Position numbers and translations under genes: made by a program. The notes beneath the pieces are model-generated. The model was not told the DNA's origin, did no database searches, and worked only from the letters and a program-made list of their open reading frames with translations. DNA of 64,000 nucleotides from Herbinix luporum (lineage in GTDB: Bacteria; Bacillota; Clostridia; Lachnospirales; Lachnospiraceae): assembly GCF_900070325.1 (NCBI RefSeq), contig NZ_LN879430.1, positions 1,729,379 through 1,793,378 on the forward strand, given 5' to 3'. Shown piece by piece: positions 52,963-59,780 of the stretch (the stretch's first letter is position 1; each line of letters begins with the position of its first letter).

Positions 52963-53874
52963 CTAATTATTTTTTACATGTTCATGGGTATATAGATGAT
53001 CCATACAGTACTCATAGTTACCCTCACATTTAGAACAGAATCTAAATTCTAAATCATCATTATCAAGTTCTGTTCTTCCACAAACAGCGCATTTATGTCT
53101 TGTAATTACTGTTTTTCCTCTAAACTCAACAACATTGCCTGATTTCATACCTTCCTTCATCTGCCTGCGAAATCTAGCTTTACGCTCAAACTCCCTAGGT
53201 GATATTCTTTGAAAATCCCTGGTGCAAAGAAAGAATATAAAGAAATTAGCTAAGGATACCACAATAGGAATTATTCCCAGGTAAAACTTGTTAACTATTA
53301 AATTATAAATATCTTTTAAATAAATTGCTCCACTAATCCAAGCAAAATATTTAGCCTTTAAGGGAATTATAAAATATAATAAAAACTGTGTATTAGGATA
53401 AATTGCTGCATAGGCAAAAAACATCGAACTATATATAATATCTAAGGGTGGTGAGATAAACATTGATGATAAAAGCAACATAAAATCTCCTAATATATTA
53501 ACTCTATATATCCCATAAACTATAAAAGCAGCTATTATGTTAAAGAATACTGCAGAAAAGAAATATAGGTTTAGTCTAAAAGATCCCCATACACTTTCCA
53601 ATGAGTTTCCTATCAAATAAAATACATACATCCTTATTATTAAAAACAAGACATCTGTAAAAGAACCTATAGTACCTACCGGAATTAAAAAAGTAACTAA
53701 TCTCCATACTTGTCCTTTTAGAACCTGATCAACTTCCAATCCAAGATACATATATGCAAAAGGATAAAAAGTGTATATAATCGCTCCAACTACATATAAA
53801 GATACCACATATTTCATAAGGTTTGGAATAGCATATTTGCTTAATTTCCTTTCCAATAACCTAAAAAACTTCAT
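52963..53874 (-). CDS. Rhomboid/derlin-like membrane protein with C-terminal zinc ribbon
   Basis: 303 residues. Five to six TM segments (about 20-42, 65-90, 98-123, 127-155, 160-180, 190-217) have a rhomboid-like layout. GQVWRLVTFLIPVG fits the conserved Trp-Arg loop, and MYVFYLIGNSLESVWG the TM2 region. No GxSG motif is present in TM4 and no catalytic His in the last helix, so it is probably not a protease; derlins and iRhoms are similarly inactive. The cytosolic tail has Cys262-x2-Cys265, Cys280-x2-Cys283 and a further Cys290-x2-His293, probably zinc-binding. ATG 53874 follows AGGTG; a GTG lies 9 nt earlier. Confidence 0.7.
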   Translation of the reverse strand: MKFFRLLERKLSKYAIPNLMKYVVSLYVVGAIIYTFYPFAYMYLGLEVDQVLKGQVWRLVTFLIPVGTIGSFTDVLFLIIRMYVFYLIGNSLESVWGSFRLNLYFFSAVFFNIIAAFIVYGIYRVNILGDFMLLLSSMFISPPLDIIYSSMFFAYAAIYPNTQFLLYFIIPLKAKYFAWISGAIYLKDIYNLIVNKFYLGIIPIVVSLANFFIFFLCTRDFQRISPREFERKARFRRQMKEGMKSGNVVEFRGKTVITRHKCAVCGRTELDNDDLEFRFCSKCEGNYEYCMDHLYTHEHVKNN

Positions 53875-54010
53875 CCATAACACCTGTGCCTTTCATATAA
53901 GATTAAAAGCTTTATCATATAAATAAAATTACAACTTTTATTATATTGTTTTATATTTCCTTTGTCAAACAAAACTATTAAGCTTATTAATTGGCATAAG
54001 TACTAAAAAA

Positions 54011-54047
54011 ACTGTTTCAAAATATTTAGCAGCTTATTTTGAAACAG
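54011..54047 (-). terminator. Terminator of the LysM gene
   Basis: Perfect 13-bp stem (CTGTTTCAAAATA / TATTTTGAAACAG) followed on the minus strand by TTTTTTTAG. Confidence 0.85.
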
Positions 54048-54074
54048 CCTTAATTTATATTTTCTTATTGACTT

Positions 54075-54398
54075 TTAATCATTTATAGGCAGCAAAATAG
54101 TTGTCCCCGGCATCAACATAATAGAATCAATATCATTTGCTTCCATCAAATCCCCCAGATTTATCCCCTTCTTTTCTATAATGCTTCCTAAGGTATCCCC
54201 TTCCTCCACTATATATCTTGTGAAATCATTATATTTGTTCTGCGGTACACAGGGTAGGCAAATAACATCACCGATACTAAGATTATATACATTGATATAT
54301 GGATTAGCCATTATAATTGCCTCTATATCCACATTATATCTTCTGCTTATGGAATATAAGGTATCCCCTTTTTTAATTTCATAATAGATGCAAAACAA
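54075..54398 (-). CDS. Double LysM-domain protein
   Basis: 107 residues made of two LysM repeats: YYEIKKGDTLYSISRRYNVD (about 5-50) and YIVEEGDTLGSIIEKKGINL (about 60-105), which bind peptidoglycan or chitin-like glycans. There is no signal peptide, as in some spore-coat or intracellular LysM proteins. The best start is TTG 54398, 6 nt after AAGGAG; the ATG at 54419 has no RBS. Monocistronic. Confidence 0.8.
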   Translation of the reverse strand: MFCIYYEIKKGDTLYSISRRYNVDIEAIIMANPYINVYNLSIGDVICLPCVPQNKYNDFTRYIVEEGDTLGSIIEKKGINLGDLMEANDIDSIMLMPGTTILLPIND

Positions 54399-54635
54399 TT
54401 TGATCTCCTTCCCGGTCATGAATAGATTACTACATTGATTAATTCTATTATATTCATTATTTGTATAAATGGGATTATATTACTTGCAAATTGTTATACA
54501 TAAAGCAACAAATGGTAGAATAAATAGCAAAATTGCGACTTATACATATCATATTATTAATATATTTACAGATTAAAATAATAATTTTTTAGAAGTATTT
54601 TACCGTTTCTTATAGTTTATATAATAATTACGATG

Positions 54636-54664
54636 TTGAACTTAATAATTTTGTATCGTATAAT
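54636..54664 (+). promoter_or_regulatory. Promoter of the tandem activase gene
   Basis: TTGAAC (54636-54641), exactly 17-nt spacer, perfect TATAAT (54659-54664), giving a ~120-nt leader. Confidence 0.75.
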
Positions 54665-54722
54665 ATAGAAAGTCTATTTTGTGTTATTATGGTAACCACC
54701 CTTAGTCCATAGCAAGACATGT

Positions 54723-54752
54723 ATGAGTAATGCATATATATGTATTGCTCAT
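54723..54752 (+). promoter_or_regulatory. Leader inverted repeat (operator or RNA hairpin)
   Basis: ATGAGTAAT and ATTGCTCAT (one G-T pair) flank GCATATATATGT, an almost complete 30-nt dyad, about 40 nt before the start codon and ~55 nt after the likely transcription start. Confidence 0.5.
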
Positions 54753-54792
54753 TTATCAAGTAAAATAAGGGTATTTATATAAGGAGTAAGTT

Positions 54793-57700
54793 ATGATGAA
54801 TAATAATTATTCTTTAGGTATCGATATTGGTTCAACGACAGTTAAAATTGTCCTTATGGATAATGAGAATGAAATCTTATTTTCCGACTATGAACGTCAC
54901 TATGCCAATATCCAAGAAACATTGGCCAATCTAATAAATAAGTCCATTACTGCTTTAGGGGATTTAGATATAAAGCCGGTTATCACAGGTTCCGGCGGAC
55001 TTTCAATCTCCAAGCATCTAGACGTTTTATTTGTCCAAGAGGTTATAGCAGTAGCAACTTCACTACAAAGTTATGCTCCTCATACAGATGTGGCCATAGA
55101 ACTGGGCGGTGAAGATGCAAAGATAATTTATTTTACCAATGGTGTTGAACAAAGGATGAACGGCATATGTGCAGGAGGAACCGGATCTTTCATTGATCAG
55201 ATGGCAAGTCTTCTTAAAACCGATGCTGCAGGTCTTAATGAATATGCAAAAGACTATAAGGCTATCTATCCCATAGCTGCCAGATGTGGTGTATTTGCCA
55301 AATCGGATATACAGCCCCTTATTAATGAAGGAGCTACAAAAGCTGACTTATCCGCTTCCATATTTCAAGCTGTGGTAAATCAGACTATCAGTGGACTTGC
55401 ATGTGGTAAGCCAATCCGTGGAAATATCGCCTTTCTCGGTGGCCCCTTACATTTCCTTTCAGAACTAAGAAATGCTTTTATCCGTACCCTAAATCTTTCA
55501 GATGAGCAAATTATATCACCAAAAAATTCTCATCTGTTTGCAGCCATAGGTGCGGCCATGAATTCAAAAGAAGATAGAAGCACCAAGCTTTCGGCTCTTT
55601 ATAAGAAACTATCCAAAGGAATCACCATGGAATTTGAAGTCCAGAGGATGCAGCCCTTATTTAAGGATGAAAATGAATATGAAGAATTCAAGAAAAAACA
55701 CTCTGTACATACAGTGAAGAAAGGGAACATAAGAGAATATAAAGGCAATTGTTTTCTGGGAATTGATGCAGGATCAACTACAACTAAGGTGGCCTTGGTT
55801 TCAGAAGACGGAACTTTACTTTATTCATTCTATAGTAATAACAACGGAAGTCCTTTAAAAACCACCATAAAAGCCCTTAAGGAAATATACGAAATTCTGC
55901 CTAAAGATGTTAAAATTGTTCGCTCCTGTGCAACAGGTTACGGAGAAGCCCTAGTTAAGGCCGCCCTAGTACTTGACGAGGGAGAAGTAGAGACTGTAGC
56001 CCACTACCATGCCGCTGCCTTCTTCGAACCTGAGGTAGACTGTATCCTAGATATAGGCGGCCAGGATATGAAATGTATAAAAATCAAAAACCAAACCGTG
56101 GACAATGTTTTGTTAAATGAAGCTTGTTCTTCCGGCTGTGGTTCATTTATAGAGACCTTTGCCAAGTCCTTAAATTATGAGGTGGAGGATTTTGCAAGGC
56201 TTGCTCTCTTTGCAGAAAATCCCATTGATCTTGGAACCAGATGTACGGTATTTATGAATTCAAAGGTAAAGCAGGCACAAAAGGAAGGAGCAACTGTAGC
56301 TGATATATCTGCCGGCCTTGCTTATTCTGTTATAAAAAATGCTTTGTATAAGGTTATTAAAATTACTAATCCTAATGACTTGGGCAATAAAATGGTTGTC
56401 CAAGGGGGAACTTTCTATAATGATGCCGTACTTAGAAGCTTTGAGCTTATCTCCGGCTGCCAAGCTGTTCGTCCCGATATTGCCGGTATCATGGGAGCTT
56501 TCGGTGCCGCTCTTATAGCCAGAAAACACTATAAAGGCGGAGAAAGTACCATGCTTACCATAGATCAGATTAATGATCTTACATTCGAAACCTCTCTTGC
56601 CCGCTGTAAAAGATGTACTAATAACTGTTTGCTTACAATTAATAAATTTACCGGCGGCAGACGTTTTATCTCAGGTAACAGATGCGAACGGGGATTAGGC
56701 AAAGAAAAGAAGGAAGATAGTGTTCCCAACCTATTCGATTATAAAATGGAACGTTACTTTAATTATCCTACTCTTCCTAAGGATCAGGCTCCCCGGGGTA
56801 CGGTAGGAATCCCCAGAGTCCTTAATATGTACGAAAACTATCCCTTCTGGCATACTTTTTTCACCAAGCTGGGATATCACATAGTTCTATCTCCTCCTTC
56901 TAGTAGGAAGATTTATGAGCTGGGTATTGAATCTATTCCCAGTGAATCAGAGTGCTATCCTGCAAAGCTGGCTCACGGCCATGTAGAGTGGCTAATTAAA
57001 GAGGGGGTAAAGTATATCTTTTATCCTTGTATTCCATATGAAAGGAAAGAGATAGCCGGGGCTAACAATCATTACAATTGCCCTATCGTTACCTCTTATC
57101 CAGAAAATATAAAAAATAATGTTGAAACCCTTAGGGACCCCTCATATGAATTTGCCAATGATTTTATTTCCTTCGAAAACGAAAGAATTTTAACTAATCG
57201 TTTAATAGAAATATTTACTAAAAAAGGAATAGATAAAGCTGAAATAAAAGAAGCAGCCAAATCTGCCTGGGAGGAACTAAACAAGGCAAGGGAAGATATT
57301 AAAAAGAAAGGGGAGGAAACCCTTAAATATCTTAAAGATAGCGGAAAAAGAGGAATCGTCCTTGCCGGCAGGCCATATCATATAGATCCGGAAATCCACC
57401 ACGGCATTGCGGAAATGATTAACTCCTTTGACGTAGCTGTACTGACAGAGGATTCCGTATCTCATCTGGCCCAGGTAGACCGTCCTACAATCGTTGTTGA
57501 TCAATGGATGTATCACTCCCGCCTCTACGCTGCTGCCTCATTTGTCCGTACTCAGCCTAACCTGGAACTGGTTCAGCTAAACTCCTTTGGCTGCGGCTTG
57601 GATGCGGTAACCACAGACCAGGTCCACGACATATTGTCAGCCTCCGGTAAAATATATACTGTTTTAAAAATCGACGAAGTAAATAACCTAGGTGCCGCAA

Positions 57701-59019
57701 GAATCCGTATTCGTTCCCTGCTTTCGGCAGTTAAAGAAAGAGAAAGTAAAAACTATCAGACTAAACTTGTATCATCAGCCTACCATAGGGCAATATTTAC
57801 TGAAGAAATGAAGGATACTTATACCATCTTGGCACCCCAGATGTCTCCCATCCACTTTGAACTCTTAGAGCCTGCCCTAAGAAGCGGAGGCTATAATGTG
57901 GTGGTACTTCCCAATGACAACCGTAGTTCGGTAGACCTTGCCCTGCAATACGTCAATAATGACGCCTGCTATCCTTCCATGATGGTTGTAGGCCAGATTA
58001 TGGACGCCCTTCTTTCAGGGAAATATGACATAAATAAAGTAGCCGTAATTATTACTCAGACCGGGGGAGGCTGTCGTGCCACCAACTATATAGGCTTTAT
58101 ACGAAGGGCCCTAGAGAAGGCCGGAATGTCCCATGTACCGGTTATCTCCCTAAGTGCATCAGGCTTGGAGAAAAATCCGGGACTAAAGATTACACCCAAG
58201 CTTCTTATTACAGCAATGGAAGCCCTGGTATACGGTGACATATTTATGCGTGTCCTATATAGAACCCGCCCCTATGAAAAGGTAAAAGGCTCTGCCAATG
58301 CTCTTCATGCAAAATGGCGTGACATCTGTATTAAGAGCCTTGAAAGGGGTAACTGGAGAGAATATAAAAGAAATATCAGAGGAATAATTAAGGATTTTGA
58401 TAATCTACCCTTACATGAAGATTTAAAGAAACCAAAAGTAGGTGTTGTAGGTGAAATCCTTGTAAAATTCCTCCCTTCAGCCAATAATTATCTTGTAGAA
58501 CTTCTAGAGGCAGAAGGGGCAGAAGCAGTTGTACCTGATTTACTGGATTTCTTTATGTATAGCGCATATAACCATAACTTTAAGGCAAAATACCTTGGTA
58601 AAAGTAAAAAAAGTGCCCATATTGCAAATACAGTTATCTGGGCTTTAGAACTACTTCGTAAGGAAGCAGTTAAGTCCTTTGAAAAGAGTAAGCGCTTTAT
58701 TCCTCCGGTTCATATCAAGAAGCTGGCTGAATATGCTAAGGATGTAGTATCTATAGGTAACCAAACCGGTGAAGGTTGGTTCCTAACGGCAGAGATGTTA
58801 GAGCTTTTGCACCAGGGAGTATATAATATAGTATGTACCCAGCCCTTTGCCTGCCTGCCAAATCATATAGTAGGTAAAGGTGTAATAAAAGAACTAAGAC
58901 GCCAGCATCCTGAAGCAAATATCGTAGCTATAGACTATGACCCCGGTGCCAGCGAGGTTAACCAACTAAATAGAATTAAACTTATGCTTTCTACCGCAAT
59001 AAAAAATATGGAGGCATAA
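54793..59019 (+). CDS. Tandem acyl-CoA dehydratase activase / dehydratase-like fusion
   Basis: 1408 residues. Two BadF/HgdC-type ASKHA ATPase domains (about 6-260 and 322-580) start [13 protein letters not shown] and [13 protein letters not shown]. Each keeps the paired cluster cysteines with identical 39-residue spacing (Cys126/Cys165 and Cys445/Cys484), which in HgdC hold one 4Fe-4S at a dimer interface. Next comes a Cys cluster (CKRCTNNC, Cys631) and a DUF2229/dehydratase-like region with [47 protein letters not shown] and [10 protein letters not shown]. The C-terminus ([16 protein letters not shown]) ends the family. A common Firmicutes protein of unknown substrate; predicted ATP-driven low-potential electron transfer. 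RBS AAGGAG before the ATG. Confidence 0.9.
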
Positions 59020-59042
59020 ACAAATAAATATATAAACAACAA

Positions 59043-59083
59043 TAATCCCCTACAATCCGATATGACCGGATAGCAGGGGATTA
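59043..59083. terminator. Terminator between activase and ung
   Basis: TAATCCCCT / AGGGGATTA outer stem and ATCCG/CGGAT inner stem, 24 nt after the activase stop; it also serves the convergent ung gene. Confidence 0.8.
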
Positions 59084-59105
59084 ATTATTTATGTAAGTTA
59101 TGTCT

Positions 59106-59780
59106 TTATATGTTTTCAATCTGCCAGTCTATAGGCTGAATGTTATTTTTCGCTAAAAATTCATTGGTTTTACTAAAAGGTTTACTTCCAAAAAATCCCC
59201 TGTAAGCCGATAAGGGACTAGGATGTGGAGCCTCCAATATAAGATGCTTTTTATTAGTAAGCATAACTTTTTTGCTCTGGGCCGGCCTTCCCCATAATAT
59301 AAATACAATGGGCCTATCCTGTTCATTTACGGCTTTTATAACAGCGTCGGTAAACTGCTCCCATCCTTTTCCTTGATGGGAATATGCCTTATGGGCCCTA
59401 ACTGTCAGTACTGTGTTTAGTAATAAAACTCCCTGCTTAGCCCACTTTTCCAAGCAACCGTTATTAGGAATATAACAGCCTAAATCATCATGAAGTTCCT
59501 TATAGATATTTACCAGGGAAGGTGGTATATCTACATGAGGTTTTACAGAAAAACATAGGCCATGGGCTTGGTTTTTGTTATGGTAAGGGTCTTGGCCGAT
59601 AATAACTACCTTCACTTTACTTAAAGGAGTAAGATGAAAGGCATTAAATATATCATCTGCCTCAGGATATATAATATGTTTTCTATATTCATCTACTACA
59701 AATTTATATAATTCTCTATAGTAGGGTTTTTTAAACTCACTGGCAATAGCATCTAGCCAATCATTAGTAATTGCCCCCAT
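59106..59780 (-). CDS. ung: Uracil-DNA glycosylase (family 1)
   Basis: Removes uracil from DNA. 224 residues. The water-activating motif is [18 protein letters not shown] with its catalytic Asp. WGRPAQ and [13 protein letters not shown] (uracil-binding and intercalation loop) are intact. Start uncertain: GTG 59789 overlaps the hisF stop as GTGA, while ATG 59780 fits the family; the Shine-Dalgarno GAGG is poorly spaced for both. Cotranscribed with hisF. Confidence 0.95.

Follow-up and report, generated by a model that had tools for sequence, protein, structure and literature searches.

To our knowledge, ATP-driven electron transfer near -1 V is confined to few systems, benzoyl-CoA reductase (BCR) and 2-hydroxyacyl-CoA dehydratase (HAD) among them; nitrogenase is the best-known ATP-driven electron-transfer system. 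We analysed a 64,000-nucleotide stretch of Herbinix luporum contig NZ_LN879430.1 (hereafter the window), in which one gene encodes, in a single chain, two activase domains (A1 and A2), a four-cysteine motif (Z) and two dehydratase-type domains (D1 and D2). Its product is probably an ATP-driven reductase of the superfamily comprising HAD, BCR and double-cubane proteins (DCCP), laid out like class I BCR, and the most probable form of this reading includes single-cubane sites.

Activators related to A1 and A2 are homodimers with ADP and one bridging [4Fe-4S] cluster, and ATP drives an electron into the cluster of the dehydratase, which itself has three-cysteine sites (PMC8473912). In class I BCR, BzdN holds an [8Fe-9S] cluster through six thiolates, and BzdO holds [4Fe-4S]-OH2 through Cys95, Cys128 and Cys380 (PMC11971306).

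Activase and dehydratase-type domains in one chain

The open reading frame (ORF) starts with ATG and is open throughout. Pfam profiles placed PF01869 in two stretches, DUF2229 (PF09989) at residues 670-889 and a weak HGD-D match at residues 1048-1124. The DUF2229 profile scored 317.3 bits over two stretches against a gathering cut-off of 29.4, and the Pfam entry itself labels this family uncharacterized. The initial annotation of the locus had described two activase domains with intact cysteine pairs, Cys126/165 and Cys445/484, each 39 residues apart. This description was borne out by the two PF01869 stretches, by TIGR00241 (acyl-CoA dehydratase activase; 243.4 bits, cut-off 125.4), with both pairs present, and by conservation among relatives. 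A2, which also carries the subfamily-specific C428 and C449, aligned with the activators of known structure 4eht and 1hux, and phmmer set its Cys445/484 without gaps on residues 127/166 of HgdC (1hux). An AlphaFold model of residues 1-602 had a mean predicted local distance difference test score (pLDDT) of 84.8 and a predicted template-modelling score (pTM) of 0.60, the cysteine loops 122-127 and 444-448 being its least confident segments (pLDDT <50). Compared as individual domains, A1 matched 4eht_B with a Z-score of 28.7 (251 aligned residues, root-mean-square deviation (rmsd) 2.4) and A2 matched 4ehu_B with 26.4 (256 aligned, rmsd 3.1).

For the dehydratase-type half (D half), a profile search of PDB sequences returned zero matches at E<=10. 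The AlphaFold model of residues 588-1408 had a mean pLDDT of 88.4 and a pTM of 0.87; Z was poorly predicted and its weakest part. Foldseek placed solely HAD, DCCP, BzdNO and MbdON chains at ranks 1-12, each with probability 1.00, and the rows displayed after rank 12 had a probability of 0.35 or less. With VIA-align, D1 matched 3o3m_D at a Z-score of 13.6 (276 aligned, rmsd 4.1) and eight more HAD/BCR/DCCP entries at 11.0-13.4, the first unrelated row standing at 8.6. The structural comparison with dehydratase and double-cubane proteins suggested in the initial annotation thus gave clear matches exclusively within HAD/BCR/DCCP, covering D1, and the model of this domain has the superfamily fold.

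What had been annotated as a 'dehydratase-like half' proved to be two tandem domains with the four-cysteine motif in front. In a profile comparison with hhalign, D1 and D2 proved homologous with their cysteines in register (94.7 %, E 5.6e-8, 280 columns), 721/763/934 falling on 1059/1094/1354; the controls A1 versus D1 and A2 versus D2 gave 0.1 % and 0.3 %. Both domains also resembled a profile of PF06050 proteins: D2 at 71 % (E 3.6e-5), its C1354 aligning to the final conserved cysteine, and D1 at 63 % (E 6.9e-5). The PF06050 score itself stayed under the cut-off of 28.4 bits, at 21.3 for the whole protein and 22.4 for D2 alone. Cysteine spacings were 42 and 171 in D1 and 35 and 260 in D2, the latter resembling the 33 and 252 of BzdO. 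Since D1 conserves three cysteines and D2 likewise three, with C1348 in addition in this subfamily, single cubanes are expected in both domains. With three conserved cysteines per domain (plus C1348), not the six thiolates of BzdN, a double-cubane cluster was rejected, and the earlier wording 'double-cubane-like' is not supported. Separately, the best 30 PF06050 proteins (L156-L185) displayed nine strongly conserved cysteines (28-30 of 30 rows) and are perhaps double-cubane-type subunits.

Cysteine conservation was assessed in 38 fused homologues, defined as ORFs of >900 residues with A1, A2 and D1 matches at E<1e-10 and drawn from 40 loci plus the window. All five parts in the order A1-A2-Z-D1-D2 were present in 31 of the 38, and 18 cysteines were kept in every one of these: 126, 165, 204, 428, 445, 449, 484, 605, 608, 612, 631, 721, 763, 934, 1059, 1094, 1348 and 1354. 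The other seven diverge or are incomplete, L036 and L039 having lost Z as well as the cysteines of D2. Four distant proteins among the seven (L037, L040, L041 and L045; 22-25 % identity) keep 14 cysteines, as 4+4+3+3, and lack 204, 428, 449 and 1348. These four residues, invariant in the close subfamily (31/31), are thus missing from all four of these full-length proteins, and they are missing from the three-gene relatives as well. L038 is a natural split, with A1-A2-Z-D1 (994 residues) and D2 (427 residues) as adjacent genes. A wider alignment of 118 rows combined the 38 fused homologues, the window's included, with 80 named loci kept of 582. Both A1 cysteines were found in 116 of 118 rows and both A2 cysteines in 117, the remaining rows being alignment gaps in named loci, and the 39-residue spacing recurred in 112/118 (A1) and 113/118 (A2). 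The activase pairs and their spacing are not chance. Wherever a column was covered the 80 named loci agreed on the cysteines, with the exception of Ala at C428 in one row, a column biased by retrieval of these loci with patterns containing C428.

Relatives encoded by three genes and their linkage to spoVA

A search of 23 loci, picked by open-frame length and not at random, revealed separate D1 and D2 genes in 14, with a single activase gene alongside in 12 of the 14; of the remaining two, L188 is cut by the end of its stretch and L194 shows no activase. The three core cysteines were present in D1 (14/14) and in D2 (14/14), as was the activase pair (12/12), whilst C746 and C1348 were missing. 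The single activase has one extra cysteine in 10/12 and ends in four cysteines in 12/12, with column distances of 3, 4 and 19 that equal the spacing of Z (605-608-612-631). Because the single activases end in four cysteines of the same spacing, Z looks like an activase tail, retained in the fused protein only behind A2; the two were compared by place and spacing.

A FastTree phylogeny of 60 activase domains, from 24 chosen fused proteins and the 12 single activases, was rooted at the midpoint. Every A1 domain fell into a single clade (support 0.979) and every A2 domain into another (0.976), across three fused subfamilies; support for the single activases as a clade was 0.342. The simplest history would be that the two units of an activase dimer were fused in tandem a single time, long ago. 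The proposal in the initial annotation that A1 and A2 form an internal pseudo-dimer around one cluster thereby gains indirect support, both the three-gene form with its single activase and the A1/A2 clades being consistent with a fused dimer.

The three-gene form was also examined for linkage to sporulation genes, by comparing positions of split-type D2 genes with those of SpoVAD (PF07451) in 119 genomes of the phylum. Among the matches listed, comprising 150 D2 rows and excluding ten weak SpoVAD rows (E ~1e-4 to 1e-3), 84 genomes had both genes, and D2 lay <=6.6 kb from SpoVAD in 52 of the 84 and in none of the other 32. The random expectation is ~0.8 of 150 rows in a 2.5-Mb genome, so the linkage far exceeds chance, although, the genomes being related, the 52 cannot be counted as independent events. 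L192 (2680-9467) has SpoVAD, SpoVAC/EB, SpoVAE, GerA, D1, D2 and activase in this order on one strand. L187 and L193 likewise displayed a D1-D2-activase cluster adjoining spore genes (spoVA, GerA-type). In the window's genome SpoVAD lies elsewhere, and there is no strong split-type D2; two weak matches (best 2.4e-8) are taken to be its two fused genes. Split-type D2 matches in G073, G104, G106, G141 and G172 corresponded to frames of 720-741 residues, perhaps D1-D2 fusions lacking an activase.

No statement of a link between spoVA and the three-gene form was found in the open literature searched, a scope outside which supplements and subscription papers fall. One paper names both spoVAD and 'CoA dehydratase' and treats them separately. 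PMC3533761 and PMC4433262 contain spoVA names and neither 'dehydratase' nor 'activase', and the words sought for this link were absent from PMC3738446.

Genomic surroundings and distribution

Features of the locus are collected in Table 1. Neighbouring genes encode a LysM protein, DUF2953 and CheW proteins, a member of the uracil-DNA glycosylase superfamily, a protein of histidine biosynthesis (PF00977) and an apparent membrane protein; three further ORFs match no Pfam family significantly. Neither a metabolic operon nor a dehydratase substrate subunit or CoA-transferase was identified among these neighbours. The genome (one contig, 99.98 % complete) as a whole had 0 matches at E<=0.001 to PF06050 and to the CoA-transferase families PF02550, PF01144 and PF02515, extending to four Pfam families the earlier remark that no such partners lie nearby.

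Table 1. Coordinates in the window of the fused gene, its parts and the divergent neighbour
Feature	Start	End	Strand	Description	Basis
Whole gene	54793	59019	+	1408 residues, order A1-A2-Z-D1-D2	
A1, first activase domain	54793	55632	+	Residues 1-280; Cys126/165; motifs DIGSTT11, GGED105, GGPL216	
A2, second activase domain	55738	56562	+	Residues 316-590; Cys445/484; motifs DAGSTT325, GGQD422, GGTF538	
Z, four-Cys motif	56605	56685	+	Cys 605, 608, 612, 631; between A2 and D1	
D1, first dehydratase-type domain	56785	57822	+	Residues 665-1010; DUF2229; Cys721/763/934	
D2, second dehydratase-type domain	57823	59016	+	Residues 1011-1408; Cys1059/1094/1354, plus C1348 in subfamily	
Divergent neighbour	52963	53883	-	Hydrophobic, apparently multi-pass; Cys/His-rich C-terminal tail; no Pfam match	Read from sequence

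The divergent membrane protein is a recurrent neighbour with a putative link to the enzyme. Among 66 named loci with >=2.5 kb upstream it stood beside the fused gene in 41: upstream in divergent orientation in 38, at a distance of up to 2 kb in 34 of these and at a greater one in 4, and within 2 kb downstream, on the same strand, in 3. In the other 25 it was not found within the stretch examined. Seven genomes from other families of the order have the membrane protein, in one case (G039) beside a fused gene. Most of this recurrence may therefore reflect common descent of the locus. A candidate RNA control element at 53800-59300 was discarded, the sole Rfam match up to E 0.5 scoring 18 bits against a gathering cut-off of 35.6.

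The fused gene family is not rare, being common among anaerobic bacteria. DUF2229, counted for fused and split forms together, was present in 55 of 61 relatives, 273 of 299 genomes sampled from the phylum and 4 of 14 control genomes (Lactococcus lactis, Thermotoga maritima, Thermus composti and Deinobacterium chartae). The window's genome has two fused genes of this kind, with 58 % identity over the aligned part. The 80 named loci, at 61-76 % identity over the best segment, belong mainly to Lachnospiraceae, the remainder to other Clostridia plus one Muribaculaceae bin. As far as we found, the family is known by name only: no function for it was found in the open literature searched, outside which the PNAS papers of Jeoung and Dobbek from 2018 and 2022 fall. 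In PMC6952196, a Streptococcus mutans gene for an '(R)-2-hydroxyglutaryl-CoA dehydratase activator-related protein' rose 2.2-fold under manganese depletion; this candidate member is a lead only.

Proposed mechanism, alternatives and comparison with known systems

If the protein is a single-chain reductase, A1 and A2 would most likely reproduce the activase homodimer within one chain, with Cys 126, 165, 445 and 484 holding one bridging [4Fe-4S] cluster. An external low-potential donor, ferredoxin or flavodoxin, would reduce this cluster, and A1 and A2 would then bind and hydrolyse ATP to drive an electron, at very low potential, onto the cluster of one of the D domains. From there it may pass to the other D domain, where the bound acceptor would be reduced. 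D1 and D2 would correspond, within the chain, to the HadB/HadC or BzdN/BzdO pair, and each would hold its cluster on three cysteines, one iron being left open. The activase may carry, in Z, yet another metal site, the fourth (Fe-S or zinc). The description 'self-contained' in the initial annotation is putative, and an electron donor is still needed from outside.

Several observations weigh against this proposal. Not all relatives can work in this way: L036 and L039 are without Z and have none of the D2 cysteines, and a distant L043 ORF (1322 residues), left out of the 38 homologues as it failed the A1/A2/D1 filter, lacks cysteines at 126, 445 and 484 as aligned. The extra invariant cysteines 204, 428, 449 and 1348 mean that the clusters could differ from that of HgdC. 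Of the two D domains, D1 is the one that aligned structurally with the superfamily; D2 was placed by profile similarity, and VIA-align rows covering part of it are unrelated common folds with Z-scores of 8.6 or less. Cluster, activity and substrate are predictions from sequence, models and analogy.

The mutual placement of A1 and A2 is unreliable in the 1-602 model, whose pTM leaves an internal arrangement unconfirmed, and the characterized activator is a homodimer (PMC8473912). Two chains might instead pair A1-A1' and A2-A2' (or A1-A2'), giving two bridging clusters per dimer, but we regard this as unlikely given that A1 and A2 diverged into two separate clades and that C449 and the following Z occur only at A2, as expected of fixed unequal roles. 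A somewhat better case, though still rather improbable, can be made for a reductive activase or repair enzyme that passes its electrons to another metalloprotein, or to the cofactor of that protein, and not to a small molecule. RACo-type activators are a precedent for reductive activation of a metalloprotein, and the broad distribution of DUF2229, the second gene copy in the genome and the missing metabolic operon would all fit such a role; no partner was identified, however, and those structural relatives of D1 whose function is known have small molecules or CoA esters as substrates (PMC11971306).

Database names point to 2-hydroxyacyl-CoA dehydratase, and the HAD system is among the nearest in fold to the activase domains and D1, which could indicate a true dehydratase or another CoA-ester enzyme of an unrecognized pathway. 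We consider this very unlikely, as PF06050 fell under its cut-off on D2, and DUF2229, found across the phylum and in L. lactis, looks too broad for one amino-acid fermentation. A fermentation dehydratase in particular is unlikely because the genome shows no match to PF06050 or to the three CoA-transferase families, and it was disfavoured accordingly; an ATP-driven reductase with an acceptor other than a fermentation 2-hydroxyacyl-CoA, as first suggested from the window, would be the best reading. A DCCP-like reductase of small molecules is very improbable: DCCP chains tie with HAD as best fold matches (Z-scores 13.1-13.4), but the conserved cysteines of each D domain fall short of the six thiolates of BzdN (PMC11971306).

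More speculatively, the fused proteins and three-gene clusters might form a separate HAD/BCR/DCCP branch of single-cubane, low-potential ATP-driven reductases with a four-cysteine activase module and a non-fermentation acceptor, the three-gene form being dedicated to spores and the fused form its vegetative counterpart. A widespread one-chain family would offer a convenient model for ATP-driven low-potential chemistry, its acceptor reaction may be common in anaerobes yet missing from metabolic maps, and the spoVA linkage of the three-gene form provides a direct genetic handle.

Among described systems, class I BCR (MbdONPQ, BzdNOPQ) likewise has two paralogous activase and two paralogous dehydratase-type units, and its folds match A1, A2 and D1; its heterotetrameric make-up corresponds to A1+A2+D1+D2 (PMC11971306; 9gai chains). 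Here, in contrast, all four units occupy one chain, sequence searches of the PDB did not link the D half to the BCR chains, and there are three-cysteine sites only, with no six-cysteine double-cubane unit. Scores for the class I BCR equivalogs were also far below cut-off (TIGR02259 110/578, TIGR02261 54/313 and TIGR03192 80/380 bits). With 2-hydroxyacyl-CoA dehydratase (HgdABC, HadBC/HadI) the protein shares the activase family, TIGR00241 scoring above cut-off, the HgdC pair 127/166 matching that of A2, the D1 fold (Z-score 13.6 to 3o3m_D) and the three-cysteine sites. It differs from that system in the tandem activase, the four-cysteine motif, the fused chain, the PF06050 score under cut-off and the absence of the three CoA-transferase families from the genome. 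DCCP and its reductase DCCP-R share the fold (6eno, 7yzm, 7yyl) and an activase-type reductase partner (7yyl_E), but the protein has too few conserved cysteines for [8Fe-9S], and DCCP forms homodimers (PMC11971306) and has its reductase as a chain of its own (7yyl), unlike the one-chain protein described here. The three-gene D1-D2-activase clusters (e.g. L192 and L205) have the same three building blocks, core cysteines and four-cysteine activase tail, and differ in their separate genes, their one activase and their frequent position beside spoVA.

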